Source: a virus. From it: a stretch of 28,516 nucleotides of DNA. The stretch lies in IMG/VR virus record IMGVR_UViG_3300031250_000006, positions 1-28,516 of that record. One strand, 5' to 3'. The position numbers were made by a program, and so were the translations under genes. Every line of letters begins with the position of its first letter. Positions within the stretch are counted from its first letter, which is position 1. Positions 2,718-28,139 of the stretch are shown piece by piece. Below the pieces are notes generated by a model that was given only the letters and a program-made list of their open reading frames with translations, did no database searches and was not told the origin of the DNA.

Positions 2718-2729
2718 GGGGCGTCACTT

Positions 2730-2869
2730 CCTTCTCCCACAAGTGGAAGAACGCAGCCCCGCGAAGCGGGGTCGGATGAGGGTCCAAGGGAAGTTTCCGC
2801 CAAGTCGCGGCGCCCCTCATCCGACCCTTGCTACGCAAGGGCCACCTTCTCCCGTTCCACGGGAGAAGG
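2730..2869 (-). repeat. REPIN/MITE-like element, long copy A (inverted)
   Basis: A 140-bp element with terminal hairpins built on CCTTCTCCC...GGGAGAAGG and inner arms GGTCGGATGAGGG (left) and CCCTCATCCGACC (right) around an asymmetric core. Its reverse complement aligns with the copies at 7909, 12103 and 15645 through the core (GCCGCGACTTGGC), so this copy sits in the opposite orientation. The left terminal hairpin is decayed (CAAGTGGAAGAA). It occupies nearly the whole gap between the connector and neck genes. Confidence 0.85.
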
Positions 2870-2901
2870 ATGCGTTGTCCCTGGAATAAGCAGACTCGCT
2901 C

Positions 2902-3833: not shown

Positions 3834-3842
3834 CGCGCTCTC

Positions 3843-3867
3843 CCTTCTCGCGTGGAACGGGAGAAGG
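3843..3867 (+). repeat. REP hairpin, short copy F
   Basis: A 25-bp hairpin (CCTTCTC-GCGTGGAACGG-GAGAAGG) nearly identical to the terminal hairpin of the 2730-2869 element, without the core or second hairpin. It lies between the tail terminator and tail tube genes and could act as a transcript-end or mRNA-stability hairpin. Confidence 0.75.
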
Positions 3868-3916
3868 ACGCGCCCATGATCATAATTCCACGCATGAACC
3901 TTGAGGAACCAAACCC

Positions 3917-4660: not shown

Positions 4661-4670
4661 AGGACGTTAG

Positions 4671-5099: not shown

Positions 5100-5323
5100 T
5101 CGCCCATTACTGCCAATGTTCGGGCGAGCGATGGGACGACGCGCTGGAGGCGAGCCTCACCTTTCCGCGCCTCTTCGCGCGTCAAAACTATTGGCGCGAG
5201 TTCCCGCCGACGCATGTGCTGGTGCGCGCGATCGCCGTGGGGCTGGGGGTGTTCAAGCCGGCGGCGCCGTCAAGGGATGCGATGGCGACATTGAGGGCGA
5301 TGTTTCCGGAGGGGAAGATTTAG
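5039..5323 (+). CDS. Tail assembly chaperone, T-like extension reached by -1 frameshift
   Basis: This 94-residue segment is open in the -1 frame relative to the upstream chaperone gene and has clear coding character: PKFFDRLIAHYCQCSGERWD, ASLTFPRLFARQNYWREFPP, HVLVRAIAVGLG. It lacks an ATG or GTG start with a ribosome site in the right place; an ATT at 5045 behind GGGGGA is the only weak internal start. It is therefore best read as the T domain of a G-T fusion made by slippage at 5033-5039. In lambda the T domain recruits tail tube subunits to the tape measure. Normally the tape measure gene follows directly; here two minus-strand cargo genes come first. Confidence 0.7.
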   Translation, partial: GNIGGDGEICDGSPKFFDRLIAHYCQCSGERWDDALEASLTFPRLFARQNYWREFPPTHVLVRAIAVGLGVFKPAAPSRDAMATLRAMFPEGKI

Positions 5324-5355
5324 GGATGCGCAATCCGCGTTGAAAGCGCCCCGCC

Positions 5356-5907
5356 TCAGCCCGCGTGCTTCTTCACCCAGGCGACATACCGGTCCATCCA
5401 ATTCTGCACAAACTGCCGGCTGGCGGGACCAATCTCGCCGTCTGCGTCGAACAGGCCCTCTTTCGCCTGGATGAAGGCTTCGGGCTGGCCCAGCGTCGGC
5501 GCGTCGAGATAGGCGAGAATGTTGCGCAAATGCTGCTGCGCCAGCGCTGTGCCGATGGCGCCCACCGAGGCGCCGATGACGCCGGCTGGCTTGCCGGCGA
5601 AGGCGTTGTCGCCGTAGGGACGCGACGCATGGTCGATGGCGTTCTTGAGCACCCCGGGAAGCGAACGATTGTACTCGGGCGTCACGAACAAAACGCCCTT
5701 GGCGGCGCGGATCTCGCCTTTCAGCCGCTTTACGGACGCAGCCTGGTTTGCGTCGTCGTCCTGATTGTAGAGCGGCAGATCGCCGATTTGCGCCTGGTGG
5801 AGGGAAAACTCCGGCGGCGCCAGTTTGGCGAGGGCGTTCGCCAGCTTGCGGTTGTAGGAGTCGCGGCGAAGGCTGCCGACCAGGACGAGGATTGGATAGG
5901 GGCTCAT
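5356..5907 (-). CDS. NADPH-dependent FMN reductase (flavodoxin-like, ChrR/SsuE type)
   Basis: The 183-residue protein is a complete member of the NADPH-dependent FMN reductase family. GSLRRDSYNRKLA (residues 11-23) forms the FMN-phosphate loop, and FVTPEYNRSLPGVLKNAIDH (74-93) is the family's signature flavin/dimer motif. Relatives reduce FMN, quinones, chromate or azo compounds using NAD(P)H; the substrate cannot be decided here. I start at the ATG at 5907, behind GGAG nine bases upstream, rather than the TTG five codons earlier. It runs opposite to the tail genes and lies between chaperone and tape measure, so it is cargo ('moron'), probably with its own promoter and possibly expressed in the lysogen. 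Confidence 0.88.
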   Translation of the reverse strand: MSPYPILVLVGSLRRDSYNRKLANALAKLAPPEFSLHQAQIGDLPLYNQDDDANQAASVKRLKGEIRAAKGVLFVTPEYNRSLPGVLKNAIDHASRPYGDNAFAGKPAGVIGASVGAIGTALAQQHLRNILAYLDAPTLGQPEAFIQAKEGLFDADGEIGPASRQFVQNWMDRYVAWVKKHAG

Positions 5908-5997
5908 ATCGATGATCTCCAAAAGCCGAGGATAAGCTGAGGCCTCAAAGCGTAATATTGTTTGGCCGCGCCAAAAGACCAGCCGTGGCTTTGCTCG

Positions 5998-6462
5998 TCA
6001 GTCGCACCCCGCGCCGACACTACGCCAATCCGTCCAGATGCGCCGCCGCGCCTCATCCAGCGCGAGCCGTCCGGCGCAAACCGCGCGGGCGAGACAGGCT
6101 TCCTTGCGGTCCTTTTCGAAGGCCTCGTCCCACGGCTGCAGCTCCAGATTGCTCGGTTCGTAAGGCGCGCCGCCGAGGCCCAGCGGAATGCGGTGGTCGA
6201 GTTCGAAGTCGCCGAGCATTTCTTGGGGAATCGCCAATTCGCGGGTCAGCGCGATTTTTACGCGCCGCGTGTAGGACGAAGAGGGCCGCGCCCCCCTCGT
6301 CCAACCGGGAACGCAAATCGTCGTCTCGACGGTCTCTTGCGTCACGGCGGGGTTATACAACATCTCCACACGAATAGGTTGTGCATGCAGTGGGCTGGCG
6401 ATCAGGACAAGAAGCAGCAATAATAGCGGCATACGCGGATTTCTCATGGGTTGGCGAATCAT
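5998..6462 (-). CDS. Secreted HNH-like protein (cargo)
   Basis: From the ATG at 6462 the product is 154 residues. Residues 1-27 form a signal peptide: basic start (MIRQPMRNPR), a poly-Leu core (MPLLLLLLVLIASP) and a cleavage site after LHA. The mature part holds ELDHRIPLGLGG (88-99), SNLELQPW (104-111) and a KD/E-containing helix with two cysteines (ACLARAVC). This D-H...N...K pattern is the degenerate HNH-type motif seen in a family of small exported proteins of Proteobacteria; nuclease activity is plausible but unproven. Starts at 6447 (ATG), 6432 (ATG) or 6483 (TTG) are alternatives; the ribosome site is weak for all. It is co-directional with the FMN reductase, 90 bases upstream of it. 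Confidence 0.7.
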   Translation of the reverse strand: MIRQPMRNPRMPLLLLLLVLIASPLHAQPIRVEMLYNPAVTQETVETTICVPGWTRGARPSSSYTRRVKIALTRELAIPQEMLGDFELDHRIPLGLGGAPYEPSNLELQPWDEAFEKDRKEACLARAVCAGRLALDEARRRIWTDWRSVGAGCD

Positions 6463-6563
6463 TGGCCCGGCGGGAATATACAACTCTATGGTTGCAGAGT
6501 CTCAAATTAAAAGAATAAAATCCGAGCCAGTTCCGGCGCGGCTCAAAAAGGGAAAATCCGCTC
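6463..6563. promoter_or_regulatory. Divergent intergenic region between HNH-like gene and tape measure gene
   Basis: This short stretch is markedly AT-richer than its surroundings (CAAATTAAAAGAATAAAATC at about 6503-6522), as expected of a promoter region between divergent genes. A small inverted repeat (CTCT...AGAG) lies at about 6484-6500. AAGGGAAAA is the ribosome binding site of the tape measure gene. No exact -35/-10 pair could be fixed. A promoter here would let the tape measure and baseplate genes be transcribed despite the opposing cargo genes upstream. Confidence 0.35.
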
Positions 6564-7859
6564 ATGGTCGACGATGTGACGATCCGCTTTAGCGCCGACA
6601 CCGGCAGTTTGGAGGACGGACTCGCCGACATGCGCGGCGCGGTCGGCTCGCTGACGCCGGACCTCAAAAAGCTTTCGGAGGGCGTGAGCGAGGCTGCGCA
6701 AAAGGCCGCGCCGGCGACAACGGCCTTTTCGCGCATGTCGCTCGCCATCGGCGACGGGTTGACCGGCGCGTTGCGGCCCGCCTCCGCCGCCTTCGCCGCG
6801 CTCGGCGACGACGCCGGCGCCGCCAAGACGCGCATCGACGGCGAGATCAAGGCGCTGCAAGAGCAGCTGGCGATCAAGAAGACGATCTTCGACGGCGAGG
6901 CGAAGCTCAAAAACATCAGCGAGGAGCAAAAAATCGCACTGGTGAAAGCCGCGACGCAAGAGGAATACGAGGCGCAGCGCGCGCTGCTCGAACAGGAGGC
7001 CGGGCTCGTTGATCAAAGCGTCCAGCAAAAGCAGCAGGCGCTGAACAAGATCGCGACGCTCGACGCGACGCATCAAAAGCAGATGCTGCAACTCGCCTAT
7101 CAGGCCGCCGAGGAGCAGAACAAAATCTGGCAGGGCCTTGCGAGCAGGATCGGCTCGTCGATGAGCTCCAGCATCATGGGGTTGTTGCAGCACACGACGA
7201 ATTTTCGCGAAGGCGTGCGCCAGATAGCGGTGCAGGCGACGCAATATTTCGTCAATATGGGCACGCAATGGGTAGCGAGTTTCGCGATGAACATAGCGAA
7301 AAACATCGCCACGCATGTGATGGGCGAACAGGCGATGACGGCCGCGACGCAGCTCGGCGTCTCCGAGCGCACGGCGAGCCAGGCGGCGGGAAGCGTCGCC
7401 GACATCGCCGGCAAGGCGGCGGCGGTGATCAAAAGCATCATGGCCTCGTCAGCCGAGGCCTTCGCCGGCGTGTTCGGCTTCATGGCGCCGCTCATGGGTC
7501 CGGCGGCGGCCGGTCCGGCGGCGGCGGCGCAGGCGACCGTGGCGGGCGCGGCCAGCATCGCCTCCTTCGACATCGGCGCCTGGAACATTCCGCAAGACCA
7601 GCTCGCGATGGTGCACAAGAACGAACTGGTGATGACCGCGAGCCAGGGCGACGCCTTCCGCAGCCTGGTCAACAACAGCTCCGCGCGGAGCGATAGCGCG
7701 CCGCGCGTCCACGCGCCGGTGAACTTCCACGTCCACGCGCTCGACACGCAGGGCGTCGCGAGCTTTTTGCAGGGCAATGGCCGCGAGATCATGAAGGCGG
7801 TCGGCCGCCATGTGCAGGACGGGTTGCATCTCGGCGTGCGGGGGCTGAACCCGACGTGA
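6564..7859 (+). CDS. Tail tape measure protein (short)
   Basis: The 431-residue protein begins with strand-rich VTIRFSADTGSLEDGLADMR, typical of tape measure N-termini, followed by long helical coiled-coil segments rich in Glu/Gln/Lys (about 95-190) and a hydrophobic, glycine/alanine-rich stretch (about 280-330). The C-terminal segment (DIGAWNIPQDQLAMVHKNEL, then VMTASQGDAF) matches the 'lvHkgE.vmp' motif that ends many lambdoid tape measures. Tape measure length sets tail length; 431 residues is short for a siphovirus and suggests a short tail, in keeping with GTA-like particles. An AAGGGAAAA site precedes the ATG. The position is conserved except for the two cargo genes between it and the chaperone. 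Confidence 0.82.
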   Translation: MVDDVTIRFSADTGSLEDGLADMRGAVGSLTPDLKKLSEGVSEAAQKAAPATTAFSRMSLAIGDGLTGALRPASAAFAALGDDAGAAKTRIDGEIKALQEQLAIKKTIFDGEAKLKNISEEQKIALVKAATQEEYEAQRALLEQEAGLVDQSVQQKQQALNKIATLDATHQKQMLQLAYQAAEEQNKIWQGLASRIGSSMSSSIMGLLQHTTNFREGVRQIAVQATQYFVNMGTQWVASFAMNIAKNIATHVMGEQAMTAATQLGVSERTASQAAGSVADIAGKAAAVIKSIMASSAEAFAGVFGFMAPLMGPAAAGPAAAAQATVAGAASIASFDIGAWNIPQDQLAMVHKNELVMTASQGDAFRSLVNNSSARSDSAPRVHAPVNFHVHALDTQGVASFLQGNGREIMKAVGRHVQDGLHLGVRGLNPT

Positions 7860-7908
7860 GGCGGACGGAGCCTTGTAGCCCATAAGCGACGAATCTGGCG
7901 GCGCGCCT

Positions 7909-8047
7909 CCTTCTCCCACTTGTGGGAGAAGGTGTCATGCGGAGCATGAAGGATGAGGGACGCCGCGACTTGGCTGAATCTTTCCCCAGAACCCTCATCC
8001 GACCCATGCTGACGCAAGGGCCACCTTCTCCCGCAGGCGGGAGAAGG
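7909..8047 (+). repeat. REPIN/MITE-like element, long copy B
   Basis: A 139-bp element. The left terminal hairpin is a perfect CCTTCTCCC...GGGAGAAGG palindrome, the centre contains GGATGAGGG, then the asymmetric core GCCGCGACTTGGC, then CCCTCATCCGACC, and the right end is a second CCTTCTCCC...GGGAGAAGG hairpin. It fills most of the gap between the tape measure and the TIM-barrel gene. Orientation matches copies at 12103 and 15645. Confidence 0.88.
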
Positions 8048-8070
8048 GAGCGACGATCCCGGAGGCCAAC

Positions 8071-10557
8071 ATGACCTTCCCCTATCTCTCCGCGATAAAC
8101 CTCATCCCCGCGTCGGGCGAGTTCGTGTACGACACGGTTGCTTACAGCGGCAGGCAGCCGGGCTCCTCGACCTTTCTGCCGATCAACACCTATCACGCGC
8201 CCGGCGGAACGCGCACCGACGTTATGTATGCGCTCGATCAGCTGCAGGCGACGCTGCCCAATTGCAACAGCGTCGCGCTCGTCGTGCAATGGCTGGGGAA
8301 CTCGCTCGACGCCTCGGCTTGCCAGGTCTATCCGGCGACGACCTATCTCTTTAACGGCGAGGTCGGCGCCTTCGAGCCGACCGCCGGCGGAACCGACTCC
8401 TGGCGCGTCTCCGACGTGACGCTCGCCACATCAGGGCTCATTCAGATCAGCCGGCCCGACGGCGTTCACGCCGCCTATGGCGGCACGCCGTCCGATCAAT
8501 CGGTCGTGCGCTGCATCGCGGAGCTTAAAGATCGCGGCTTCAAGGTCGCGCTTTATCTGATGATGAACATGGATGTGACCGGCAAGCCGTGGCGCGGCCT
8601 CGTCACCTATTCGCCCGATGTCTCCAGCGCGGCGACGACGGTTGTGAACAATTTTCTGGGAACCGCCGCGACCTCGCAGTTCACCCGCGACGCGACCAAT
8701 CTCACCGTGCATTACTCCGGCAATGTGCTCGACTTCACTTATCGCCGCTTCGTGCTGCATTACGCCAATCTCGCGACGCTCGCCGGCGGCGTCAATCTCT
8801 TCGCCTTCGGCTCGGAGCTGCGCGGGCTGGAGGCGATACGCGGCCCCGCCTGGACGCCCGCAGGAACTACGGACGGAAGCGGCAATGCTGTGTGGGATTA
8901 TCCCTTCGTCGCCGGGCTCGTCACGCTCGCCAATGATTGCCGCTCGGTTTTCGACGCGGCGGGCTTCACCAAGAATCTAGCGGCGCGCGAAAACCTCATC
9001 ACCTATTCCGCCGATTGGTCGCAATGGATGGGCGCGCAGCATTCGGGCGTAACGGGTGTCTTTCCGCATCTCGACACGCTGTATGCGTCGTCCAACATCG
9101 ATTTCGTGTCGATCGACAATTACATGCCGCTGTCGGATTGGACCACCGGAGAGGGCGGTCTCGACGCGCAAAACTGGCGCTTGCCGCCGCCGGCCTCCTG
9201 GCCGCTCGCCAGCCCGACGAGGCTTGGCTTTGGCCTCACCGGCGCGCCCGATGTTCACCGGGTCGATTATCTGAAGGCCAATATCGAGGGCGGAGAGAAA
9301 TATCACTACTGGTACGGCGACTACACATCCTCGGTGACGCTCGATCCCAATGGCACGCTGCAATATGTGACCGCGCCGCAGGGCGATCGGCTGGCGCAGG
9401 CGCGCAATCCATATTTCGCGGGTCAAGAACTGTTCGCCTTCAAGATGCTGCGTTGGTGGTGGCTCAACACGCATCAAGCCGTCTACGACGCCGGCGACGG
9501 CGCCGGGACTATTCCGCGCGGGCCGCGAACGCAATGGGTTCCGCAGTCGAAAAGCATCGGCTTTCTCGAATATGGCTTTCCGACCTCGGATCGATGCAGC
9601 AATGAAGAAAACGTGTTTTACGATCCGCAATCGATCTCCGGCGGGACGCCGTTCTGGACGATCTGGAACGCCGCCAAATCCGCGCCATTGATCGACGCGA
9701 CGCTGGCGCTGACCGCGCTGCAGGCCTTTTGGCAATATTGGACGACCGACGGCAATAATCAGACGTCGGGCGCCGGCCTGCCGATGATCGCCGACGATCT
9801 GATGTTCGCCTGGTGCTGGGATGCGCGGCCGCTGCCGGAGTTTCCGCTGCGCACTGACATTTGGTCGGACGGCGTCGAGTGGCGGAACGGCCATTGGCTC
9901 AACGGCAAGCTGCCTTCCTTGCCGCCGCAGACGCCGTCAAGCGCGCCGAGCTTCGGCCCGTTCCCAAGCTTCCCGACATTGATCGGGCAGGGCTGGTCGA
10001 GCAAGGTTACGCCGAAATTTTCGACGCTCGCGCATGAGCGCGCGTCGGGCAAGTCGTCGCGCCGCATGAAGATGCGCTGGCCGCTGTACGAGATCGAACT
10101 GACCTATGACTTTCTGCGCGCCGACCCCGGAACGCAAGAGCTGCAAAACATCCTCGGCTTCTTCGAGAGCGTGCAAGGCCAGGCGCAGCCGTTCTGGCTC
10201 GCGCCGCCGGGGCTTTCCGCGTTGACGAACCAGCTGGTGGGAACCGGCGACGGCGCGACGACCGCATTTGCGATGGTTCGCACGACCGGGGCTTTTACGG
10301 AACCGCTCGCCGGCGTCGCGTCGCTGTCCGCCGTGCGCGTGAATGGCGCGGCGCTGGCCTCTGGCGCGTGGAGCCTGTCGCCTGGCTATGAGCCCGTGCT
10401 GACGCTTGCGAGCGCGCCCGCATTGGGCGCTGGCGTCAACGTGGACGGCGTGGCCCTGTGGCTGTGCCGCTTTGCGGGCGACGCGCTGGACTTCGAGCAA
10501 TTCGCTTACAACCTGTTCAGGCTGAAGAGCGTGAAGCTGGTGACGGTGAAACTGTGA
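8071..10557 (+). CDS. GTA TIM-barrel-like domain fused to DUF2460 (distal tail) domain
   Basis: The 828-residue protein is a two-part fusion. Residues 1 to about 620 match the TIM-barrel-like domain of the R. capsulatus GTA tail-tip protein (gp15): LIPASGEFVYDT, ALDQLQATLPNCNSVALVVQ, AYGGTPSDQSVVRCI, KDRGFKVALYLMMNMDV and NIDFVSIDNYMPLSDW, then DDLMFAWCWDARPLPEFP near the end. Residues about 635-828 match DUF2460, the GTA gp12/distal tail protein family (FSTLAHERASGKSSRRMKMR, LTYDFLRADPGTQEL, FFESVQGQAQPFWLAPPG, then FDFEQF-like LDFEQFAYNLFRLKSVKL). In RcGTA these domains are in separate genes, and the TIM barrel is internal to the large tip protein. A GGAGG site lies five bases before the ATG. 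A glycoside-hydrolase-like fold is inferred for the barrel; activity is unknown. Confidence 0.85.
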   Translation: MTFPYLSAINLIPASGEFVYDTVAYSGRQPGSSTFLPINTYHAPGGTRTDVMYALDQLQATLPNCNSVALVVQWLGNSLDASACQVYPATTYLFNGEVGAFEPTAGGTDSWRVSDVTLATSGLIQISRPDGVHAAYGGTPSDQSVVRCIAELKDRGFKVALYLMMNMDVTGKPWRGLVTYSPDVSSAATTVVNNFLGTAATSQFTRDATNLTVHYSGNVLDFTYRRFVLHYANLATLAGGVNLFAFGSELRGLEAIRGPAWTPAGTTDGSGNAVWDYPFVAGLVTLANDCRSVFDAAGFTKNLAARENLITYSADWSQWMGAQHSGVTGVFPHLDTLYASSNIDFVSIDNYMPLSDWTTGEGGLDAQNWRLPPPASWPLASPTRLGFGLTGAPDVHRVDYLKANIEGGEKYHYWYGDYTSSVTLDPNGTLQYVTAPQGDRLAQARNPYFAGQELFAFKMLRWWWLNTHQAVYDAGDGAGTIPRGPRTQWVPQSKSIGFLEYGFPTSDRCSNEENVFYDPQSISGGTPFWTIWNAAKSAPLIDATLALTALQAFWQYWTTDGNNQTSGAGLPMIADDLMFAWCWDARPLPEFPLRTDIWSDGVEWRNGHWLNGKLPSLPPQTPSSAPSFGPFPSFPTLIGQGWSSKVTPKFSTLAHERASGKSSRRMKMRWPLYEIELTYDFLRADPGTQELQNILGFFESVQGQAQPFWLAPPGLSALTNQLVGTGDGATTAFAMVRTTGAFTEPLAGVASLSAVRVNGAALASGAWSLSPGYEPVLTLASAPALGAGVNVDGVALWLCRFAGDALDFEQFAYNLFRLKSVKLVTVKL

Positions 10558-10568
10558 GCGGGCTTTTT

Positions 10569-10592
10569 CCTTCTCCCACTTGTGGGAGAAGG
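10569..10592 (+). repeat. REP hairpin, short copy C
   Basis: A 24-bp perfect palindrome (CCTTCTCCC-ACTTGT-GGGAGAAGG), identical to the left terminal hairpin of the element at 7909, lying 12 bases after the stop of the TIM-barrel/DUF2460 gene. No core or partner hairpin is present. It could form a transcript hairpin between the two DUF2460-encoding genes. Confidence 0.85.
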
Positions 10593-10619
10593 AAGAGCGC
10601 CGATGCAATGTGAGGCCGC

Positions 10620-11222
10620 ATGACTCTTCCCTTTTTCCGCACGCTCGCAGGCCAGACCTTCGCGACCAAGAGCCCGATCACCGCGAGCATCGTCGCCGAG
10701 CATGACTCCGGGCGCACGGTGCGCACCGCGCTGTATCAAGGGCTTTACGAATTCGAGATCGGCTTTGACGCGCTCGCCTCGGACGCCTCAAGCAATCCCG
10801 GGCTCGGCGCGCAATCGCTGCAGGTCGTGATGGGGCTTTATCTGCAATGCGGCGGGTCTTACGGCGCGTTTCTTTACGTCGACCCAAACGACAACGCCGC
10901 GACCAACCAGACGATAGTGACCGGCGACGGCGCGACGACGCAATTTGCATTGCGGCGCTCGATTGGCGCGGGAACGGATTCGGATATTTACGCCACCGGC
11001 GTAACGAGCGTGACCGTCAACGGCGCCGCCGCTTCGAACTGGTCGCTCACTGCTCCGAACTTGCTCGCTTTCGCGAGCGCGCCGGCGAGCGGAGCCGTCG
11101 TCGCCGCGTCTTTCACTTACGCCTTCGTCTGCCGCTTTCTCGAAGACAGCCAGGACTTCGAAAACTTCATGCAAAATCTCTGGGCGGCGAAGACGATCAA
11201 ATTTCGGAGCGTGCGGCAATGA
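10620..11222 (+). CDS. DUF2460 distal tail protein (GTA gp12-like), second copy
   Basis: The 200-residue protein is a stand-alone DUF2460 protein: TASIVAEHDSGRTVRTALYQ, LYEFEIGFDAL, LQVVMGLYLQCGGSYGAFLY, then DPNDNAATNQTIVTGDGATT and the ending FVCRFLEDSQDFENFMQNLW. In RcGTA this family (gp12) forms the distal tail ring. It shares with the C-terminal domain of the preceding protein the order FxxVQGxxxPFW/GSYGAFLY, NQxxxTGDGATTxFA, VTVNGAA, CRF and a final FExF motif, so the two are paralogues. Both may occur in the ring, or the fused copy may anchor the TIM barrel to it. GTGAGG lies upstream of the ATG, and the stop overlaps the next ATG (ATGA). Confidence 0.88.
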   Translation: MTLPFFRTLAGQTFATKSPITASIVAEHDSGRTVRTALYQGLYEFEIGFDALASDASSNPGLGAQSLQVVMGLYLQCGGSYGAFLYVDPNDNAATNQTIVTGDGATTQFALRRSIGAGTDSDIYATGVTSVTVNGAAASNWSLTAPNLLAFASAPASGAVVAASFTYAFVCRFLEDSQDFENFMQNLWAAKTIKFRSVRQ

Positions 11223-12091
11223 AGACAGCTTCCTCGGCGCTGGTGAATTTTCTGACCGCCGCGCGCGCCAACCCGGATATTCAACTCGCCTTCGCCGACT
11301 GCTACACTTTCACGCTGATGAGCGGAACGGCGCTCACATACACCAACGCCGACGTGCCGATCGTTTATGCGGGCAAAGAGTTTCTAGCCAATGGGCCGCT
11401 GGTCTCCGGCCTCAAATATCGCGCCGCGACCGGGCTCAACGTCGACCGCCAGGAAATCACCGTGGCCGCAAGGCCCGGCGATTTAACCAGCGGCGCGGCG
11501 TTTCTCGTCGCCTTGCGCGACGGAGCTTTCGACGGCGCGATGGTGCAGCGCGACCGCGTGTTCTTCGCCGATGTCGTCGGCGGGACGCTCGTCGATGGCG
11601 TGACGCTGTTCTACGGCCGCGTCTCGACCGTGGACGAAGTGGGCCGCACCAAGGCGAAACTCTCCGTCGCCAATGAGCTTGTTCTGCTCGACATCGACAT
11701 GCCCCGCAACATCTTCGCGCCGACCTGCCTGCACACGCTGTTTGATCTCGGCTGCGGCCTGCCGGCGGGCGCCTTTTCGACCAATGGAGCCGTCGGCGCG
11801 GGCTCGACGACGAGCCTCATCAATTTTGGCGGCGCGCTGGCCGCGCATCTGCAGGGGAAGATCGTGTTCAGCTCCGGCGCCAACGCCGGCGTCGTCGCGA
11901 CGGTCAAATATGTTGTCGCCGGCGCGTCGCTGACGCTGATGTATCCACTGTCCGAGGCGCCAGCGGCCGGCGACGCGATCACCGTCTATCAGGGCTGCGA
12001 CCACACGATGGGCACATGCCAGACGAAGTTCGACAATCTCGCGAATTTTCGGGGCTTTCCGTTTGTGCCGCCGCCGCAGATGGCGGTGTGA
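11219..12091 (+). CDS. DUF2163 / phage_BR0599 baseplate hub protein (GTA gp13-like)
   Basis: The 290-residue protein carries an N-terminal DUF2163 domain (LADCYTFTL-like FADCYTFTLMSGTALTYTNA, then RQEITVAARPGD; FLVALRDGAFDGAMVQRDRV) and a C-terminal phage_BR0599 domain with the family's cysteine pattern (GCDHTMGTCQTKFDNLANFR, residues about 260-280). RcGTA gp13 is the hub protein of the baseplate. I start at the ATG at 11219 overlapping the previous stop; the open frame extends further upstream only as out-of-frame read of the previous gene. Gene order DUF2460-DUF2163-NlpC/P60 is exactly that of GTA clusters. A long repeat element follows. Confidence 0.9.
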   Translation: MKTASSALVNFLTAARANPDIQLAFADCYTFTLMSGTALTYTNADVPIVYAGKEFLANGPLVSGLKYRAATGLNVDRQEITVAARPGDLTSGAAFLVALRDGAFDGAMVQRDRVFFADVVGGTLVDGVTLFYGRVSTVDEVGRTKAKLSVANELVLLDIDMPRNIFAPTCLHTLFDLGCGLPAGAFSTNGAVGAGSTTSLINFGGALAAHLQGKIVFSSGANAGVVATVKYVVAGASLTLMYPLSEAPAAGDAITVYQGCDHTMGTCQTKFDNLANFRGFPFVPPPQMAV

Positions 12092-12102
12092 GCTGCGGAT
12101 CT

Positions 12103-12240
12103 CCTTCTCCAGTTTACGGGAGAAGGTGTCATGCGAAGCATGACGGATGACGGACGTTACGACTTGGCTGTATCCCTCCCACGGACCCTCATCCGACCCT
12201 TGCTTCGCAAGGGCCACCTTCTCCCACAAGTGGGAGAAGG
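12103..12240 (+). repeat. REPIN/MITE-like element, long copy D
   Basis: A 138-bp element in the same orientation as the copy at 7909, sharing GTGTCATGCG, the core GACTTGGCTG, and ACCCTCATCCGACC followed by GCAAGGGCCACC. The left hairpin has a variant loop (CCTTCTCC-AGTTTAC-GGGAGAAGG); the right hairpin is a perfect CCTTCTCCC...GGGAGAAGG. It fills most of the gap between the DUF2163 and peptidase genes. Confidence 0.88.
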
Positions 12241-12267
12241 GATTCGCCACCGCCAACGGAACCCCAC

Positions 12268-12705
12268 ATGCGCGAAAAAATCGTCGCCGAGGCGCGGTCC
12301 TGGATTGGCACGCCTTATCACAATTGCGCCGATATAAAGGGCGTCGGCGTCGATTGCGGGATGCTTTTGGTGCGCGTCTTTGTCGATCTTGGGCTGGTGA
12401 AGCCCTTCGATCCGCGCCCCTATACGCATGACTGGCACATGCACCGCGACGAAGAGCGTTACCTCAACCTCGTGCTGCCGCGCGCGCGCAAAACGTCATC
12501 GCCGCTTCCCGGCGACGTGATGCTGTTTCGCGTCGGGCGATCCTACAGCCATGGCGGGCTGATTTCCCGCCTCGAACCGCTGACGATCGTTCACGCGTCG
12601 CTGCCGTCGCGGATCGTTCTCGAAGAAGCCGTGGAGCGCAACGCCATGATGGCGGAGCGCGTCGCCACGGCGCTTTACGCCAGCGTCGTGGATGGACCGC
12701 TATGA
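12268..12705 (+). CDS. NlpC/P60-type tail peptidase (GTA gp14-like)
   Basis: The 145-residue protein matches the NlpC/P60 family peptidase of GTA and related tail tips. The nucleophile is Cys30 in VGVDCGMLLVRVF, the catalytic His is His95 in YSHGGLIS, and His109 (TIVHAS) is the probable third residue. The N-terminus (VAEARSWIGTPYHNCADIKG) is characteristic. The enzyme is expected to cut peptidoglycan stem peptides during DNA delivery. Length is normal for the family. The start lies just after a long repeat element and has only a weak ribosome site. The stop overlaps the next gene's start (ATGA at 12702-12705). Confidence 0.9.
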   Translation: MREKIVAEARSWIGTPYHNCADIKGVGVDCGMLLVRVFVDLGLVKPFDPRPYTHDWHMHRDEERYLNLVLPRARKTSSPLPGDVMLFRVGRSYSHGGLISRLEPLTIVHASLPSRIVLEEAVERNAMMAERVATALYASVVDGPL

Positions 12706-14948
12706 GTTTTCTCGCCGCCAAAAAGGCCTCGCCGCTGACCGCCGCGATCTGGCCGGCCTATACCGGGCTGCAACTGCAAACCGCGACGAACAGCTTGCCG
12801 ATTCCGCTGGTGTGGGGCATGAACAAGCTCGCGGTGAACATCTTCTTTTACGACAATTTCCGGGCGGTTCCGGTGTTCACGCCGCAGGCGTCGGCGGGCA
12901 AGGGGTCGATTTTCGGCGGAGGCGGCGGCGTCACCTGGAGTCTTTCCGGCTGGACCTATTCCGCCGATCTGATGATGGCGCTGTGCGAAGGGCCGATCGT
13001 CGGCGTCAATCAAATCTGGCAAAGCCAGTCGACTTACGGAACGCAATTCGCGACGACGGGCGGCGTCGTCTCGGGCGGCGGCTCGGGCCTTTCCTCGCTG
13101 GGACTCACGCTGTTTAACGGCGCGGCGGGCCAGGCGCCCTGGGGCTACCTCGCCGCGACTTATCCCACGCAAAGCCTCGCCTATCCCGGCACGGCCTATG
13201 TCTGCGCGGCCAACTTCGGGCTCGGCGCCTCGGCCAGCATCGGCACGCTGAACCTCGAAGTGCAGGGGCCGTTGTTCGGCACCGGCGCGAACGGGCTGGA
13301 CGCCGATCCCGCGCATGTGATCGCCGATTTTCTGCTCAATCCGCAATATGGCGTCGGCTTTCCCGGCGCCAATCTCGACGCGACGACGATCTACGGCGCC
13401 AGCGGCGGCGCGTCGCTGCAAAACTATTGCCGCGCGATGGGCCTGTGCTTCAGCCCGACGCTCAACCAGACCGAAACGGCGTCGAGTGTGTTGACGCGAT
13501 GGCTGCAATTGCTGAACGTCGCGGCGGTGTGGTCGGGCGACCGGCTGCGTTTCATTCCCTATGGCGACGAAGGCGTCACCGGCAATGGCGCGACCTTCGT
13601 TCCGAGCACGACGCCGGCCTATGCGCTCAGTGACGCCGATCTCGTCTATACGCCGGGCGACGATCCGATCAAAGTGTCGCGCGTCGATCCCTTCACCCTG
13701 CCCAATCTGCAGTGGATCGAGGCGCTCAACCGCACCGGAATCAGCACCGGCCCGTCTGGCCCGTCGAACATATTGGAGCCGCAGGGCCTGCCGGAATATC
13801 AGGCGACGCCCGTATCGGCGCGCGATCAGGCGATGATCGAACAATTCGGCCTGCGCGTCGGCTCGACAATCACCGCGCATGAGATTTGCGATCTTAATGT
13901 CGCGTCGGTGGTCGCGCAGACGATCCTGCAGCGCGGGCTCTATGTGCGCGCCAGTTTCAAATTCTCGCTGTCCTGGGAGTTTTGTCTGCTCGATCCGATG
14001 GACATTGTGAGTCTGACCGACGCCAATCTCGGCTTGAGCAATTACCCTGTCCGAATCGTCAGCATCGAGGAAGACGACAGCGGGAAGTTGAGCGTGACGG
14101 CGGAGGAAATGCCGCAGGGGGTCGCCACGCCTGCCTCCAATCCGATGGGCTCCACCGGCGGCGGCTCGATCAACGCCGCAGCGGTCGCCGATCCGGTCAA
14201 TACGCCGTTGATTTTCGAGCCGCCGCCGGGCCTGACCGGCAACACCGCCGAAATCTGGCTCGGCGCTTCGGGCGGCGCGAGCGGCGTCAACGATCCGAAC
14301 TGGGGCGGCGCGCTGGTCTGGGCTTCGCTCGACAATCTCGCCTTCCAGAAGATCGTCACGATCACCGCGCCGCTGCGCCAGGGCTTTTTGACCGCGCCGC
14401 TGCCTTTTGCGACGGGTTACGACACAGCCGACACGCTGAGCGTCGATCTCACCGAAAGCGCCGGCGCGCTCACCACCGCGACGCAGGCCGCGGCGCAGGC
14501 GGGGCAGACGCTGTGTCTCGTCGACGGCGAACTTTTGGGCTTCTCCAGCGCGACGCTGACAGCGACCTATAAATACAACCTCGCGGGCCTTCCGCGCGGT
14601 ATGTATGGAGCGACGGCGGCGGCGCATTCCACCGGCGCGCCCTTCGCGCGGCTGGACGGCGCGGTGGCGCAATATGCGCTGCCCTCCAACTTCATCGGCC
14701 AAACGATCTATCTCAAATTCCAGAGTTTCAACGTCTTCGGCGGGGGCGTCGAGGATTTGTCGAATTGCGCGGTTTACACCTATGTCCCCAGCGGCGCGGG
14801 CGTCGTCGGCCCGGTCACGACATCGCTGGAGCTTGGACAGGCGCAGGACTGGGGACTGGCCAGCGCGCCGGTTGGCGTTTCCGACGATTGGGGCACGGCG
14901 AACGGGGCGGTTTTCGCGAGGGTTGATCTGGGGAAGGTGGCGGCGTGA
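12702..14948 (+). CDS. Tail-tip protein with Phage-tail_3 domain (GTA gp15-like, lacking TIM barrel)
   Basis: The 748-residue protein corresponds to the tail-tip ('megatron') gp15 of GTAs but without the internal TIM barrel, which is encoded instead at 8071-10557. The N-terminal region has LVWGMNKLAVNIFFYDNF-like and MMALCEGPIVGVNQIW (about 90-105) segments as in GTA tips. Residues about 300-470 are the Phage-tail_3 domain (YTPGDDPIKVSRVDPFTLPN; RASFKFSLSWEFCLLDPMDI; NYPVRIVSIEEDDSGKLSVT). The C-terminal part is Ala/Gly/Thr-rich and beta-structured. RcGTA gp15 is about 1,300 residues, so this protein is close to the family minus one domain. The start overlaps the peptidase stop. Confidence 0.86.
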   Translation: MSFLAAKKASPLTAAIWPAYTGLQLQTATNSLPIPLVWGMNKLAVNIFFYDNFRAVPVFTPQASAGKGSIFGGGGGVTWSLSGWTYSADLMMALCEGPIVGVNQIWQSQSTYGTQFATTGGVVSGGGSGLSSLGLTLFNGAAGQAPWGYLAATYPTQSLAYPGTAYVCAANFGLGASASIGTLNLEVQGPLFGTGANGLDADPAHVIADFLLNPQYGVGFPGANLDATTIYGASGGASLQNYCRAMGLCFSPTLNQTETASSVLTRWLQLLNVAAVWSGDRLRFIPYGDEGVTGNGATFVPSTTPAYALSDADLVYTPGDDPIKVSRVDPFTLPNLQWIEALNRTGISTGPSGPSNILEPQGLPEYQATPVSARDQAMIEQFGLRVGSTITAHEICDLNVASVVAQTILQRGLYVRASFKFSLSWEFCLLDPMDIVSLTDANLGLSNYPVRIVSIEEDDSGKLSVTAEEMPQGVATPASNPMGSTGGGSINAAAVADPVNTPLIFEPPPGLTGNTAEIWLGASGGASGVNDPNWGGALVWASLDNLAFQKIVTITAPLRQGFLTAPLPFATGYDTADTLSVDLTESAGALTTATQAAAQAGQTLCLVDGELLGFSSATLTATYKYNLAGLPRGMYGATAAAHSTGAPFARLDGAVAQYALPSNFIGQTIYLKFQSFNVFGGGVEDLSNCAVYTYVPSGAGVVGPVTTSLELGQAQDWGLASAPVGVSDDWGTANGAVFARVDLGKVAA

Positions 14949-15017
14949 CATTGCCCGTCCACCTAAAAACTGTTAGTGCCTCGCGCGATCCACACTTCGC
15001 CCACGAGGTCCAGCCCC

Positions 15018-15614
15018 ATGAACGACTCCGCCCCGACGCGCGCCGATTTCGCGGTTATCGAGCGCTCGGACGCGCGTTGGGCGCGGCTGCGCGAGCTGAT
15101 CGAGCTGCATTCGCTCAAAAGGGGCGATTTCACGCTCTCGTCCGGCGGCAAGAGCACATATTTGTTCCAGCTGCGGCAGACGACGATGCTTCCCGAGGGC
15201 GCGAAGATTCTTGGCGATATCGTCGTCGATTTCATGAAGCGCCACGATCTGCGCTGCGTCGGCGGTCTTGCGGTCGGTGCGGTGCCGATGGTGTCCGCCG
15301 TGTCGGTGATGAGCTTCATCAAGGCGTTTCCGATCGGCGCCTTTTTCGTGCGCAAGGAAGCCAAGGCGCATGGCGCGCTGGAGCGCATCGACGGCTTTGT
15401 ATCCAGCGGCGAGGAAGCGCTGCTGATCGACGACGTGGCGACCTCGGGCAATTCGATCATCAAGGCGATGGAAGGAATGCGCGCGGAGCATCCGACCAGC
15501 TTCGCGCGCAAGGCGCTTGTGGTGATCGATCGTGAAGAGGGCGCGCGGGAGAATCTCGCAGGCCATGGGATCGAGCTGTTTTCGATTTTTACGCGACGCG
15601 ATTTCAACATCTAA
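15018..15614 (+). CDS. pyrE: Orotate phosphoribosyltransferase (cargo)
   Basis: The 198-residue protein is a complete orotate phosphoribosyltransferase, which makes orotidine monophosphate from orotate and PRPP in pyrimidine synthesis. The catalytic loop RKEAKAHG is at residues 112-119, and the PRPP-binding motif LLIDDVATSGNS at 135-146. FTLSSGGKSTYLFQLRQTT (38-56) is the N-terminal substrate loop. I start at ATG 15018, behind CGAGG, rather than the ATG at 14976. It lies 69 bases after the tail-tip gene and before the appendage genes, on the same strand, so it would be transcribed with the late tail genes. All active-site motifs are intact, so it could boost UMP supply during infection, or be a host gene captured at this site. 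A composite repeat element follows. Confidence 0.9.
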   Translation: MNDSAPTRADFAVIERSDARWARLRELIELHSLKRGDFTLSSGGKSTYLFQLRQTTMLPEGAKILGDIVVDFMKRHDLRCVGGLAVGAVPMVSAVSVMSFIKAFPIGAFFVRKEAKAHGALERIDGFVSSGEEALLIDDVATSGNSIIKAMEGMRAEHPTSFARKALVVIDREEGARENLAGHGIELFSIFTRRDFNI

Positions 15615-15644
15615 AGTCGCGATCAGCGGCCCTAGGCGCGCCTC

Positions 15645-15824
15645 CCTTCTCCCACTTGTGGGAGAAGGTGGGCCTCGCGTTAGCGAGGGTCGGATGAGGG
15701 ACGCGGGCGCTAGGTTGGAACTTCCCATCAACCCTCATCCGTCATGCCATAGCCCGTCATTTATGACGGGCGTTCTGTCGCACGCCCCATGGCGTGACGC
15801 CTTCTCCCGCTCCACGGGAGAAGG
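15645..15824 (+). repeat. REPIN/MITE-like element, long composite copy E
   Basis: A 180-bp copy. The left hairpin is a perfect CCTTCTCCC...GGGAGAAGG palindrome, followed by GGTCGGATGAGGG, the core, and CCCTCATCCG; the right hairpin is CCTTCTCCC-GCTCCAC-GGGAGAAGG-like. Before the right hairpin an extra ~60 bases replace the usual GACC...GGCC arm and carry two more hairpins: GCCCGTCAT-TT-ATGACGGGC at 15752-15771 and CACGCC-CCAT-GGCGTG at 15781-15796. It separates pyrE from the appendage genes. Confidence 0.85.
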
Positions 15825-15872
15825 AAGGACTCGCACGTCCCGTCGATCTTCACCCACAAGGAGCACGCTCGC

Positions 15873-16421
15873 ATGAGCACGCAGGTTCAGTTGCGGCGCG
15901 ACACCGCCGCCAATGTCGGCGCCTTCACCGGCGCGCAGGGCGAGGTCATCGTCGACACCACCAATAACCGCCTCGTCGTGCAGGATGGCGCGACGGTTGG
16001 CGGCTTTGCGGCGGCGAAGCTCTCCGAGGTGGTGACGGTGAGCGCCGCGACGCTGCTCTCGCAGGCGGCGCATGGCGGCGGCGTCACCGCCGGCTGTCTT
16101 GAGCAACTCGTCACGCTCTCCGGCGCGACGACGAGCTCGACCGCGCAGATTCCGAGCGGCGCGATTGTGCTCGCCGTGTCGAACCGCGTCGTTACGGCGA
16201 TCACCGGCGCGACCTCCTATAGTTGCGGCGTCGCCGGAAACGCCTCGCAGTTTGGAAGTTTGCTCGGCGTTTCCGCCGGCTCCGCCAATCTCGGACTCAT
16301 CGGCCCCAATCCATTCTACGCGGCGACCTCCGTGCTCTATACGGCGGCGGGTGGAAGTTTCACCGGCGGAACCGTGCGCATGACGATTCACTATCTCTTG
16401 CCGAACGTCGCGACGGCGTAG
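15873..16421 (+). CDS. Tail appendage protein with Mtd-like N-terminal domain
   Basis: The 182-residue protein starts with VQLRRDTAANVGAFTGAQGE followed by VDTTNNRLVVQDGATVGG. This is the phage-attachment domain found at the N-terminus of many tail appendages (as in the Bordetella phage Mtd family), which docks the appendage to the tail. The remainder (60-182) is small-residue-rich and beta-predicted, ending FTGGTVRMTIHYLLPNVATA. No known receptor domain is recognisable. A strong AAGGAG site precedes the ATG. It opens the distal appendage cluster that follows pyrE. Confidence 0.72.
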   Translation: MSTQVQLRRDTAANVGAFTGAQGEVIVDTTNNRLVVQDGATVGGFAAAKLSEVVTVSAATLLSQAAHGGGVTAGCLEQLVTLSGATTSSTAQIPSGAIVLAVSNRVVTAITGATSYSCGVAGNASQFGSLLGVSAGSANLGLIGPNPFYAATSVLYTAAGGSFTGGTVRMTIHYLLPNVATA

Positions 16422-16572
16422 GTCCTTTCGACCGTTTTCTTCGTGCGAACCGGCCTCCGCTTCGCTCGAAAACGCCGTAGCGCCGCAAGCAATTCCAGAA
16501 ATTCGAACGACATCGACGCGCCGGGCTCTCCCGGCGCGATCGCGAACGCGCGTCCAACCAGGAGCTTTAAAC
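16422..16572 (+). terminator. Intergenic region with strong GC hairpin
   Basis: Between the two appendage genes lies a perfect 9-bp stem with a 4-nt loop (CGCGCCGGG-CTCT-CCCGGCGCG, 16517-16538). It lacks a following T-tract, so it is not a classic intrinsic terminator, but could pause transcription or protect the transcript. The AGGAG ribosome site of the next gene follows. No gene is visible in the gap. Confidence 0.4.
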
Positions 16573-16941
16573 ATGCAATGGAAAAACCCGGACGGGTCCA
16601 TCACCGAGGGCGTCGTCATCGAGGATGGCGGCGGCAATAAGATCGCGTTCTACAACGTGCGACCGGTCGGCTCCGCCTCGCTCGCCACATCGCAGGCGTC
16701 GATTGGAACTACGGCCGCGCAGATCGTCGCGGCGCGCAACGGCGCGCCCGGGACCGGCCGCATCGCCGTGACGCTCTACAACTTCAGCTCGGCGACAGTG
16801 TTTTACGGCGCTTCCGGCGTGACGGCGACGACGGGATTTCCGCTCCCCGCCGGCGCGGCGGCGACAATCAACACGACGGCGGCGCTCTATGGGATCGCCG
16901 CCAGCGGAACCCAAACCATCGGCGTCATGGAGACATTCTGA
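16573..16941 (+). CDS. Small virion-associated protein of unknown function
   Basis: The 122-residue protein is not recognised. It begins MQWKNPDGSITEGVVIEDGG and ends ASGTQTIGVMETF; residues 60-122 are beta-strand-like (RIAVTLYNFSSATVFYGASG, then PLPAGAAATINTTAALYGIA), resembling a capping or receptor-proximal beta-sandwich domain. No signal peptide is present. An AGGAG site lies nine bases upstream. Its stop shares one base with the next start (TGATG), coupling it to the large fibre-like gene, so it is probably a component of the same appendage or an attachment adaptor. Confidence 0.6.
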   Translation: MQWKNPDGSITEGVVIEDGGGNKIAFYNVRPVGSASLATSQASIGTTAAQIVAARNGAPGTGRIAVTLYNFSSATVFYGASGVTATTGFPLPAGAAATINTTAALYGIAASGTQTIGVMETF

Positions 16942-19313
16942 TGCGCTCGAAACCTTTCTTCACCCTCATCGCGGTTTTGCTCGGCGCGGGTGCGGCGCTG
17001 GCGGACGACGTGCGTCCTCCGAGCGCGCCCAATTTTACCCTCGGCATGCCGCTGTCCGGCGGCGGCTGGACGGTCGGCGATTGTATTTCCGTCGCCACGG
17101 GACCCGTGGTCGGACAGCAAAGCTGCGGCGCCGCGAATCTCACCATCGGCACGACCAATGTCACGGGAGCCGCCGGCCTGCTCTTCTCGGATGGCGCGAA
17201 TCTGCAATCCTTTGCGGCGACGTATTCATCGACCAACGGGCCAAACCTGTCGTTCGCGAACAACGCCAGCTTTACTTTTAACGCCGATGGCACAGTTTCC
17301 GCGCCAAGTTTGAGATTCAATACTCCATCGGGGGACGGATATAACCTAGAAGAGTTCTGGAGCAGCGGCACAATCGGAGGATATATTACCTCTGGCGGTG
17401 CGTTGTTCACGACAACCGGTGTCGTCGTATCCGGGACGAGAGCCGGAAACGCGATCCAGTGGCCTAACAACCAAACCGGAATGATGGGCTGCTGGCAGGA
17501 CGTTAACGGATACTGCCTAGCCCTACGAGACCATTATTCTGAGGTCGGAAATATCACTCTTGTCACGCAGAACGCAAACGGAGCCTATGCGATCGGGCTT
17601 GAAGCCGCGAATGCACAGATAGATTTCGGAACCAGCTCGACGTGGAACACCTGGGCCGCGCGCTTTGGCCTCGGCAATCAATCGGCTCTGTTGCAGTTCG
17701 GCGGCGCGGACACGGTTTCGCCCGTCGCATATACGGCTGCGGCCTCAAGCGCCTCGGCCCCGGTCAATTTGACCGCCACAACTTCCGCCGCCGGTCAAAA
17801 CCAACTGAGCCTTAACGGCTCGCAATATCTCACGCAAGCCGTCCAGGTCGGAATGACCTGCACGGATACGACGCATCCGACCGTCATCCCGTCGAACACC
17901 ACGATAACCTCTATAGCCTGGGGCGCAGGTCCGATCACGCTCAGCGCCAACATCACGGGCGCGGGCGTTACTGCTGGCGACACGATCCAATGTAGCGCGC
18001 CCAATGTGGCCGGCGCCAATCTGACTATCGCCGGCGGACGCGGCACGGGAAATCAGCCGGGTGGCTCTTTGATCCTCGGCTATGCCCCGGCAGGGTCGTC
18101 GGGTTCGTCGCAAAACGCCTGGCTGGCCGCGGCGACGATCAATGGCTCCGGGTTGACACTCGGCGTGCAGGGGACTTTGCAAGGCGCGCTCACGCTCGCC
18201 AACACAAATTCAACCTATTCCGCGACGCTGAAAAGCTCGAACAGCGCGACGGCGGCGGTGACTTACACTCTGCCCGTCGCTCCCCCTGTCGCCAATGGCT
18301 ACATGCTCACCTCGACGACGGCAGGCGTCTGGTCGTGGGTTAATCCCGGCGCCGCCACGCTGTCTATTGGATCAGGAGTTTCCGGGTCAACGCCAAGCAG
18401 CCCGCTGTGCGTCGATGGCTCCGGCAACCTCGCCGACACCGGCTGCGCGACCGGGCTTTCCTTCCCCGCGACGATTTCCGGAGGCACGGCGGGGGGCGTT
18501 GCGTATTTCTCTGGGGCGACAACCCTCGCGTCCTCAGCGCTACTCGGCAACGGTCTGTTAATGACCGGTGGCGGCGCAAGTGGCGCGCCTTCGACGGTCA
18601 CGCTTGGCGGCGACTGCACTTTCATTTCTCCAAACATCACTTGCCTAAAAACCAGCGGCACGGCCTTTGGCTCTCTTGCAACGGCGTCGGTAGGAACTGG
18701 CGTTGTGACAGCGCTGGGGATTAACGCCGGCGCGCATGGCGGCATCATCATCGGCACCAACAACGGGACGAATGTCGGCATAGGAACATTTAACGTTTTC
18801 TCGGCTGGTAGTCAGAATGTGCTTGTCGGCCCTGGCACAATGGGCACATCCGGCGCGTCTAATATGACCGCAGTTGGCGGACAGGCGTTAACCTCGGCAA
18901 ATTCCACCGCTGGAGCAGATGCGGCTTTTGGTTACGAAGCTCTTACCGCGCTGACCACGGCAAACAATGTTACTGGCGTTGGACCATTTGCGTTCTTGCA
19001 TCTTACGACCGGAGGCAACAACGCTGGCCTTGGCTACAATGTCGGAACCAGCATAGTTGGCGGAACGGGGAACACCCTGCTTGGGGCCAGCGCCGATCCC
19101 GGCAGCGACGCAAGCAACACTATCGTGATTGCATCTGGGGGATCGAAAAAGATCGACTATGGCGCAACAACCGCGAGCGCCTGGACGCTCGCCGGGCAAC
19201 TCTATCTCTCGACGACTCCGACAACATCAACGGGATCGTCTGGGGCGAAATATCTCTGCTACTACCCGACGACCGGCCAAGTCCAGCTCGCGGCGTCTGG
19301 AACCTGTTCATAA
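16941..19313 (+). CDS. Large fibre-like protein with N-terminal signal peptide
   Basis: The 790-residue protein starts with a convincing Sec signal: MRSKPFFTLIAVLLGAGAAL ending ALA-DD at about residue 22. The rest is a fibre-like beta-rich sequence, dominated by Gly/Ala/Ser/Thr/Asn. A middle motif (LKSSNSATAAVTYTLPVAPP, then MLTSTTAGVWSWV) is common in phage fibres, and residues about 600-720 contain degenerate NxAxGxxAL repeats like those of the protein at 259. The C-terminus has YLCYYPTTGQVQLAASGTCS. Base composition from about 17.3 to 19.2 kb is less GC-rich than the tail genes. A secretion signal is unexpected for a cytoplasmically assembled tail fibre; it could instead be a surface protein expressed by the lysogen, or the hydrophobic segment may be a virion-anchor. 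Translation is coupled to the upstream gene (TGATG). Confidence 0.68.
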   Translation: MRSKPFFTLIAVLLGAGAALADDVRPPSAPNFTLGMPLSGGGWTVGDCISVATGPVVGQQSCGAANLTIGTTNVTGAAGLLFSDGANLQSFAATYSSTNGPNLSFANNASFTFNADGTVSAPSLRFNTPSGDGYNLEEFWSSGTIGGYITSGGALFTTTGVVVSGTRAGNAIQWPNNQTGMMGCWQDVNGYCLALRDHYSEVGNITLVTQNANGAYAIGLEAANAQIDFGTSSTWNTWAARFGLGNQSALLQFGGADTVSPVAYTAAASSASAPVNLTATTSAAGQNQLSLNGSQYLTQAVQVGMTCTDTTHPTVIPSNTTITSIAWGAGPITLSANITGAGVTAGDTIQCSAPNVAGANLTIAGGRGTGNQPGGSLILGYAPAGSSGSSQNAWLAAATINGSGLTLGVQGTLQGALTLANTNSTYSATLKSSNSATAAVTYTLPVAPPVANGYMLTSTTAGVWSWVNPGAATLSIGSGVSGSTPSSPLCVDGSGNLADTGCATGLSFPATISGGTAGGVAYFSGATTLASSALLGNGLLMTGGGASGAPSTVTLGGDCTFISPNITCLKTSGTAFGSLATASVGTGVVTALGINAGAHGGIIIGTNNGTNVGIGTFNVFSAGSQNVLVGPGTMGTSGASNMTAVGGQALTSANSTAGADAAFGYEALTALTTANNVTGVGPFAFLHLTTGGNNAGLGYNVGTSIVGGTGNTLLGASADPGSDASNTIVIASGGSKKIDYGATTASAWTLAGQLYLSTTPTTSTGSSGAKYLCYYPTTGQVQLAASGTCS

Positions 19314-26406: not shown

Positions 26407-26409
26407 GGG

Positions 26410-27630: not shown

Positions 27631-27640
27631 GGCGGCGTCC

Positions 27641-28136: not shown

Positions 28137-28139
28137 GGC

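Follow-up and report, generated by a model that had tools for sequence, protein, structure and literature searches.

A TIM barrel joined to a duplicated DUF2460 distal tail protein in phages whose tail-tip protein lacks the barrel

In RcGTA and roseophage R4C, a TIM barrel lies within the large tip protein called the megatron (Rcc01698, gp15), and a 2026 preprint describes the exact function of this peripheral barrel in RcGTA as unknown (PMC13420450). The distal tail protein (Dit) of RcGTA turns its N terminus toward the hub/megatron layer, which it contacts, and carries an insertion domain that resembles oligosaccharide-binding domains (PMC7296036). In phage JBD30, the Dit (gp49) is one chain with two beta-sandwich domains and forms a trimer under the six-fold tube (PMC11445458). 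In siphophages of Gram-positive hosts, “evolved” Dits have carbohydrate-active domains that promote adsorption to polysaccharide-coated cells (PMC10688798).

The stretch of DNA analyzed here, hereafter the window, is a 28,516-base IMG/VR virus record. Its tail genes are arranged in the order tape measure, barrel-DUF2460, DUF2460, hub, NlpC, tip, two short genes and Mtd_N protein, with the following features:

6564 to 7859, + strand: tape measure protein, 431 aa, upstream neighbor (phrog_2854, E 1.2e-13; position kept in relatives)
8071 to 10557, + strand: 828-aa fusion gene, GTA_TIM barrel and DUF2460 distal-tail domain (Pfam, fold matches)
8092 to 9822, + strand: barrel proper, residues 8-584, eight strands (AlphaFold strands, conservation, GH113 and megatron fold matches)
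9823 to 9969, + strand: barrel C-terminal tail and proline-rich linker, about residues 585-633 (low-confidence model stretches, profile gap)
9970 to 10551, + strand: fused DUF2460 domain, residues 634-827 (Pfam, DUF2460 tree, fold match to an R4C protein)
10620 to 11222, + strand: free DUF2460 paralogue, 200 aa (PF09343, E 4.2e-31; DUF2460 tree)
11219 to 12091, + strand: baseplate hub protein, 290 aa, RcGTA gp13 type (TIGR02218 above cut-off; PF09931 and PF09356 in the same frame)
12268 to 12705, + strand: NlpC/P60-like tail peptidase, 145 aa, RcGTA gp14 type (TIGR02219, E 1.2e-14, and PF00877, E 0.0042, both below cut-off)
12702 to 14948, + strand: barrel-less tail-tip protein, 748 aa (Pfam, model, tip tree)
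15873 to 16421, + strand: Mtd_N-bearing protein, 182 aa, probable fiber, conserved downstream neighbor (PF18454, E 1.3e-12; recurs in relatives)

A sequence-only reading of this DNA had described the 828-aa protein as a TIM barrel followed by a DUF2460 domain, and the 748-aa protein as a Phage-tail_3 protein devoid of the barrel. Domain searches on both proteins agree with this description. The 828-aa protein matches GTA_TIM (PF13547) at E 3.9e-86 over residues 222-592 and the complete profile (1-299), scoring 289.5 bits against a curated cut-off of 27, which makes it a member of this family, and it matches DUF2460 (PF09343) at E 2.3e-26 over residues 634-827 and nearly the whole profile. Both the fused domain (92.9 bits) and the free gene (108.4 bits) exceed the PF09343 cut-off of 30.4 bits, and their place between tape measure and hub fits this family as well. 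The 748-aa protein matches PF13550 (Phage-tail_3, E 3.9e-28) and PF23666 (Rcc01698_C, E 9.7e-16), and no barrel domain was found in it by the Pfam search. Against the megatron equivalog NF048004 (cut-off 800 bits), the 828-aa protein reaches 401.6 bits through its barrel part, and the 748-aa protein 98.9 bits with its best stretch at the C terminus, so that neither counts as a megatron. In 99 of 104 fusions, 15 residues, about one third of them proline, separate the barrel profile from the DUF2460 profile, and AlphaFold confidence in the 828-aa protein is low at residues 585-594 and 610-627.

Using the fusion protein as query, we found 12 IMG/VR loci and one locus in a Methylocystaceae MAG; 12 of these 13 have the fusion frame, the remaining one ending inside the barrel at the contig end, and 11 of the 12 continue in the same order into the tip gene or close by. 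In the alphaproteobacterial family of this MAG, the barrel is present in 116 of 149 genomes, about 100 of the matches being megatron-sized and roughly 24 lying in frames of 750-900 aa, and reading of the loci gave the fusion layout in 20 of the 149 genomes, the MAG included (one of them, L067, is frameshifted). With a profile built from 23 fusions, at least 570 relatives were confirmed in IMG/VR, and nearly all of the best 80 of these loci have the layout. A PF13547 search of 385 genomes drawn from the class found the barrel in 36, the fusion being known only in the starting genome, so that it is concentrated in a few host groups; the order-wide barrel list consists of the strongest matches and gives no fusion frequency. 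The layout tape measure/barrel-DUF2460/free DUF2460/hub/NlpC/barrel-less tip/Mtd_N is thus found in about 100 loci, and the split proposed in the sequence-only reading, with a barrel-DUF2460 protein beside a barrel-less tip, is conserved among relatives. Chance or an artifact as the source of the fusion was ruled out by the same reading frame in over 100 loci, and its presence in IMG/VR contigs as well as in bacterial genomes excludes an assembly artifact in particular. None of the deposited phage and plasmid records covers 80% of the 828-aa protein, no deposited phage record has the layout, and a search of the open literature returned no paper describing a barrel-Dit fusion, the DUF2460 papers appearing unrelated. 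The barrel-Dit fusion is a real and widespread variant of known tail-tip parts that is apparently undescribed.

Directly downstream of the fusion gene lies the free DUF2460 gene (10620-11222), overlooked in the sequence-only reading and 37% identical to the fused domain. This duplication of the Dit alters the interpretation of the fusion, as the phage continues to produce a DUF2460 ring subunit that lacks the barrel. On TIGR02217, which defines the Rcc01695 subfamily (cut-off 136.65 bits), the free copy scores 28.4 bits, and the fused copy is not among the listed matches. The DUF2460 tree unites 54 fused domains in a single clade (100% support) adjoining the free copies, with a branch of length 1.98 leading away to 13 RcGTA-type Dits, so that the fused and free domains are paralogues of this lineage. 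The insertion domain of DUF2460 is missing in 21 of 104 fused copies vs. none of 99 free copies, its state changing seven times on the barrel tree. Such a loss, confined to fused copies, suggests different roles for the two.

Loci L143 and L145 (L168 shows the latter a second time) lack the free gene and have the barrel joined to a free-type DUF2460, with GGAGG or AGAGG located five bases upstream of the old start codon of this domain; judged from its sequence, this purine-rich site could let translation start internally and so give a bare subunit. The barrel is on a free-type domain in L170 and L172 as well, with no clear ribosome site at the old start, so that a bare subunit is perhaps not always needed and the internal-start argument is suggestive only. 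An arrangement of the barrel with two DUF2460 domains in one chain, which would have proved a 1:1 pair covalently, was considered for L143 and L145 and rejected: each has one free-type DUF2460 with extra internal sequence. A frameshift affects the DUF2460 domain of L172, and the tape measure/barrel region of L170 is interrupted by three in-frame TAGs (279-281, 701-703 and 1724-1726). In L010, a contig closely related to the window, residue E500 of the barrel is replaced by Gly, and stop codons interrupt the tip gene (TAA, 13379-13381) and the next gene (TAG, 15366-15368). Decay, sequencing error or recoding are possible origins of the in-frame stops in L170 and L010 and of the E500 change.

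We modeled the fusion protein with AlphaFold (67 sequences, pLDDT 84.6). The barrel spans residues 8-584, the Pfam match covering its second half only, with eight strands at 8-12, 67-76, 158-167, 243-247, 309-315, 345-349, 496-501 and 573-584; the linker is poorly ordered and the DUF2460 domain well predicted. In Foldseek searches the model matched the R4C megatron (E 7.6e-27), the R4C distal tail protein 8gtc_G (E 5.0e-9) and GH113 mannanases (from E 2.4e-5, TM about 0.6-0.66 by target length), GH113 being the nearest enzyme fold to the barrel. Residues 6-618 align to 220-765 of the RcGTA megatron. Enzymes of clan GH-A have their acid/base and nucleophile glutamates at strands 4 and 7. In the model, E249 comes just after strand 4 (243-247) and E500 lies within strand 7 (496-501), which gives, by computation, the (beta/alpha)8 barrel with glutamates at the ends of strands 4 and 7 that characterizes the clan. 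Neither residue varies among the 94 barrels of the tree, whether fused, megatron or stand-alone, and many aromatic and acidic residues are likewise invariant; the residue preceding the putative acid/base glutamate is Ser in the fusions and Thr in the RcGTA and R4C megatrons. On the GH113 profile PF22612 (cut-off 27 bits) the window protein scores 23.6 bits, below the cut-off, and two relatives pass, L046 with 29.4 bits and the stand-alone barrel L158 with 29.5 bits. A sequence-profile search of the PDB matched megatrons and Dits and returned no GH113 structure, so that the case for a catalytic role is built on the fold match and the strand positions.

The 748-aa tip protein was modeled with a pLDDT of 76. 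Its best fold match is the JBD30 hub gp53 (E 2.8e-24), followed by Chi, lambda J and T5 pb3, the RcGTA megatron ranking further down, and on this model it is an ordinary barrel-less hub of the J/gp53/pb3 type. In a tree of tip C-terminal regions, the barrel-containing megatrons all fall on one side (100% support), and the tips of the fusion phages cluster with those of Polewnik, KT1, AbaSI_5 and L171, which have no barrel either; the 748-aa tip thereby stands with barrel-less tips from phages of Brevundimonas, Acinetobacter and Pseudomonas. Both the tree and the fold matches indicate that a barrel-less tip is the common state. L171 has a single DUF2460, of the free type, next to its barrel-less tip, and no barrel was found in the stretch read.

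We propose that the Dit (DUF2460) gene was duplicated in this lineage and that one copy gained an N-terminal barrel. The near-constant 15-residue proline-rich linker would tie the barrel to the N terminus of the fused DUF2460. Together with its bare counterpart, this domain would be part of the distal ring or lie beside it, with the tail tube on one side and the hub/tip complex on the other. The barrel would then project at the level of ring and tip, where it would bind, and probably cleave, host-surface polysaccharide during adsorption. Taken as a whole, a barrel-bearing Dit paralogue in or near the distal ring, its barrel acting on a host-surface glycan, is in our judgment the likely explanation; L065, a relative on the fused side of the barrel tree without any DUF2460, counts against it, as do the replacement of E500 in L010 and the Ser/Thr difference before the putative acid/base glutamate. 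By homology, the fused DUF2460 very probably belongs to the distal ring. A regular alternation of three barrel-bearing and three bare subunits, drawn from the same homology, is put forward tentatively, and we would be still more guarded about a hetero-oligomeric ring of three bare Dits and three Dits with a glycan-cleaving barrel, an attachment of the GTA barrel that would be independent of the one in the megatron. If true, such a ring would solve the mismatch between six-fold tube and three-fold baseplate genetically, and would give phages of Gram-negative hosts a distal-ring enzyme. The claim that the barrel hangs from the ring rather than the tip stands insofar as the barrel is on a distal-tail domain, but the spatial difference was perhaps overstated: given that the N terminus of the RcGTA Dit is at the hub/megatron layer, the fused barrel could sit in nearly the same belt as the megatron barrel.

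Two other readings concern where the fused copy sits and what its barrel does. The fused DUF2460 could form an additional ring or collar of its own or dock one by one on the outer side, the free DUF2460 alone building the true ring and the barrel being a peripheral decoration; the fused copy indeed evolves faster and repeatedly loses the insertion domain, which the free copy never does, and the free copy stands alone in the barrel-less stretch of L171. We nevertheless regard this placement as less likely, as the sole DUF2460 of L143 and L145 is of the free type and bears the barrel, so that a barrel on the main ring looks tolerated, and as the linker is nearly constant in length, as in a fixed geometry. 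As for function, the barrel may be a catalytically dead carbohydrate-binding or structural domain, a conceivable but less favored reading, consistent with the weak sequence similarity to GH113 and with the function of the RcGTA barrel being called unknown (PMC13420450). The invariance of the glutamates at GH-A positions and of many aromatic and acidic residues across three architectures argues against it, as does GH113 being the nearest enzyme fold. On the strength of the model, we thus lean toward a GH113-like glycoside hydrolase of clan GH-A type, with hydrolase activity somewhat favored.

The history of the module can be read in the same manner. In the tree of 94 barrels, a single branch (100% support) separates all fused barrels, together with three relatives without a detected or intact DUF2460, from all megatron barrels and the stand-alone L158 and L161; with the DUF2460 tree, this means that one origin suffices for the fusion. 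The sequence-only reading had inferred a re-modularized tail tip, and in this it captured a barrel covalently tied to a distal-tail domain instead of the tip, in a conserved combination unlike that of RcGTA. Its proposed direction of change, with the tip as the source of the barrel, is not supported and is probably wrong, given that the 748-aa tip groups with barrel-less tips and folds like barrel-less hubs. A scenario in which the barrel was cut out of the tip of an ancestor resembling RcGTA and transferred onto the Dit would fit with the homology of fused and megatron barrels over their whole length and with the position of the megatron barrel between two stretches matching the barrel-less tip, but we consider it very improbable: the barrel-less tips of Polewnik, KT1, AbaSI_5 and L171 group with fusion-phage tips against all barrel-containing megatrons, the tips of JBD30, Chi, lambda and T5 are barrel-less too, and the fused/free DUF2460 pair is not of RcGTA type. 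Most likely, the tip never had the barrel and the same module was placed twice, separately, a reading that rests on parsimony, all trees being unrooted.

Other attachments were seen among the loci. L065 (8244-10823, - strand) has a fusion-side barrel without DUF2460, which follows the Mtd_N gene and seems to be a module that was secondarily re-attached. In four genomes from the same taxonomic order (L158, 6708-8909; L159; L160; L161), the barrel is a stand-alone gene with its own N-terminal region, in frames of 734-789 aa; the surroundings look prophage-like, with portal-like and spike-like neighbors (a guess from reading), and no DUF2460, hub or tip was found within the stretch read. Brevundimonas phage Polewnik (L148, 4125-6575) has another N-terminal fusion to DUF2460, an 816-aa protein annotated as hypothetical (USN16582.1) whose N-terminal part is rich in glycine and ALK_LTK_GRD-like; the tip of this phage has no barrel.

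The REP-like palindrome CTTCTCCCRCNNGYGGGAGAAG occurs in five exact copies in the window (7910-7931, 8025-8046, 10570-10591, 12218-12239 and 15646-15667; 0 expected by chance), mostly between tail genes and once between the fused and free DUF2460 genes, with a degenerate copy at 2731-2752; among the fetched loci it is present only in the closest relatives of the window. A 790-aa protein (16941-19313) has a signal-like hydrophobic N terminus and no match in Pfam or PHROG; in contigs that share 72-96% identity in their tail genes, the identity of this protein is only 37-42%, so that this gene beside the Mtd_N protein appears, by sequence comparison, to be fast-changing. The head genes are of Mu type (Mu F, Mu portal, terminase and Gp27; 19990-28347, - strand) and converge on the tail cluster (259-19313, + strand). 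The three of them tested (F, portal, terminase) and the gene at 259-1617 were found in none of the fetched loci, and in relatives the same tail genes are preceded by a different head module, whose portal is of PF04860 type; either a head swap or misassembly of the contig could account for this. With Mu-type head genes, no full megatron and no TIGR02217-type Dit, the window falls outside the RcGTA-type gene transfer agents.

One barrel with an invariant glutamate pair on three carriers, namely a tip protein, a Dit paralogue and a stand-alone gene, constitutes a portable unit that can be tested alone, and the Dit fusion makes a convenient construct, as it comes without the other parts of the megatron. 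The paired-Dit phages, a large and apparently undescribed family, offer a test of the transition from six-fold tube to three-fold baseplate in siphophages. Compared with GH113 beta-1,4-mannanases (clan GH-A), the window barrel has the same fold and the two glutamates at strands 4 and 7, but it has long inserts, is about 10% identical in fold alignments and is encoded in a virion gene module. As in the evolved Dits, a distal tail protein is enlarged by a carbohydrate-active extension; these have internal carbohydrate-binding insertions in a single Dit, whereas the extra domain here, placed outside the Dit domain, is N-terminal, of enzyme fold, and carried by a second copy of the Dit, in phages that infect Gram-negative bacteria, so that the fusion falls outside the definition of an evolved Dit. 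The JBD30 Dit is a precedent for two non-identical Dit halves, which here are separate genes, one with an enzyme-like barrel, and the window tip is barrel-less as is gp53, its best fold match. Like Rcc01695 (gp12) of RcGTA, the Dits of the window belong to the DUF2460 family and are encoded between tape measure and hub, but one short gene there corresponds to two copies here, one of them barrel-bearing and both far off in the tree. With the RcGTA and R4C megatron, finally, the fusion shares the same barrel family over its full length, the same putative catalytic glutamates and, downstream, the same genes for hub, NlpC peptidase and tip; there the tip protein contains the barrel internally, while here it is the N-terminal part of a Dit paralogue beside a barrel-less tip, and phages carry the same barrel module in two different places at the end of the tail, probably for work on the host sugar coat.
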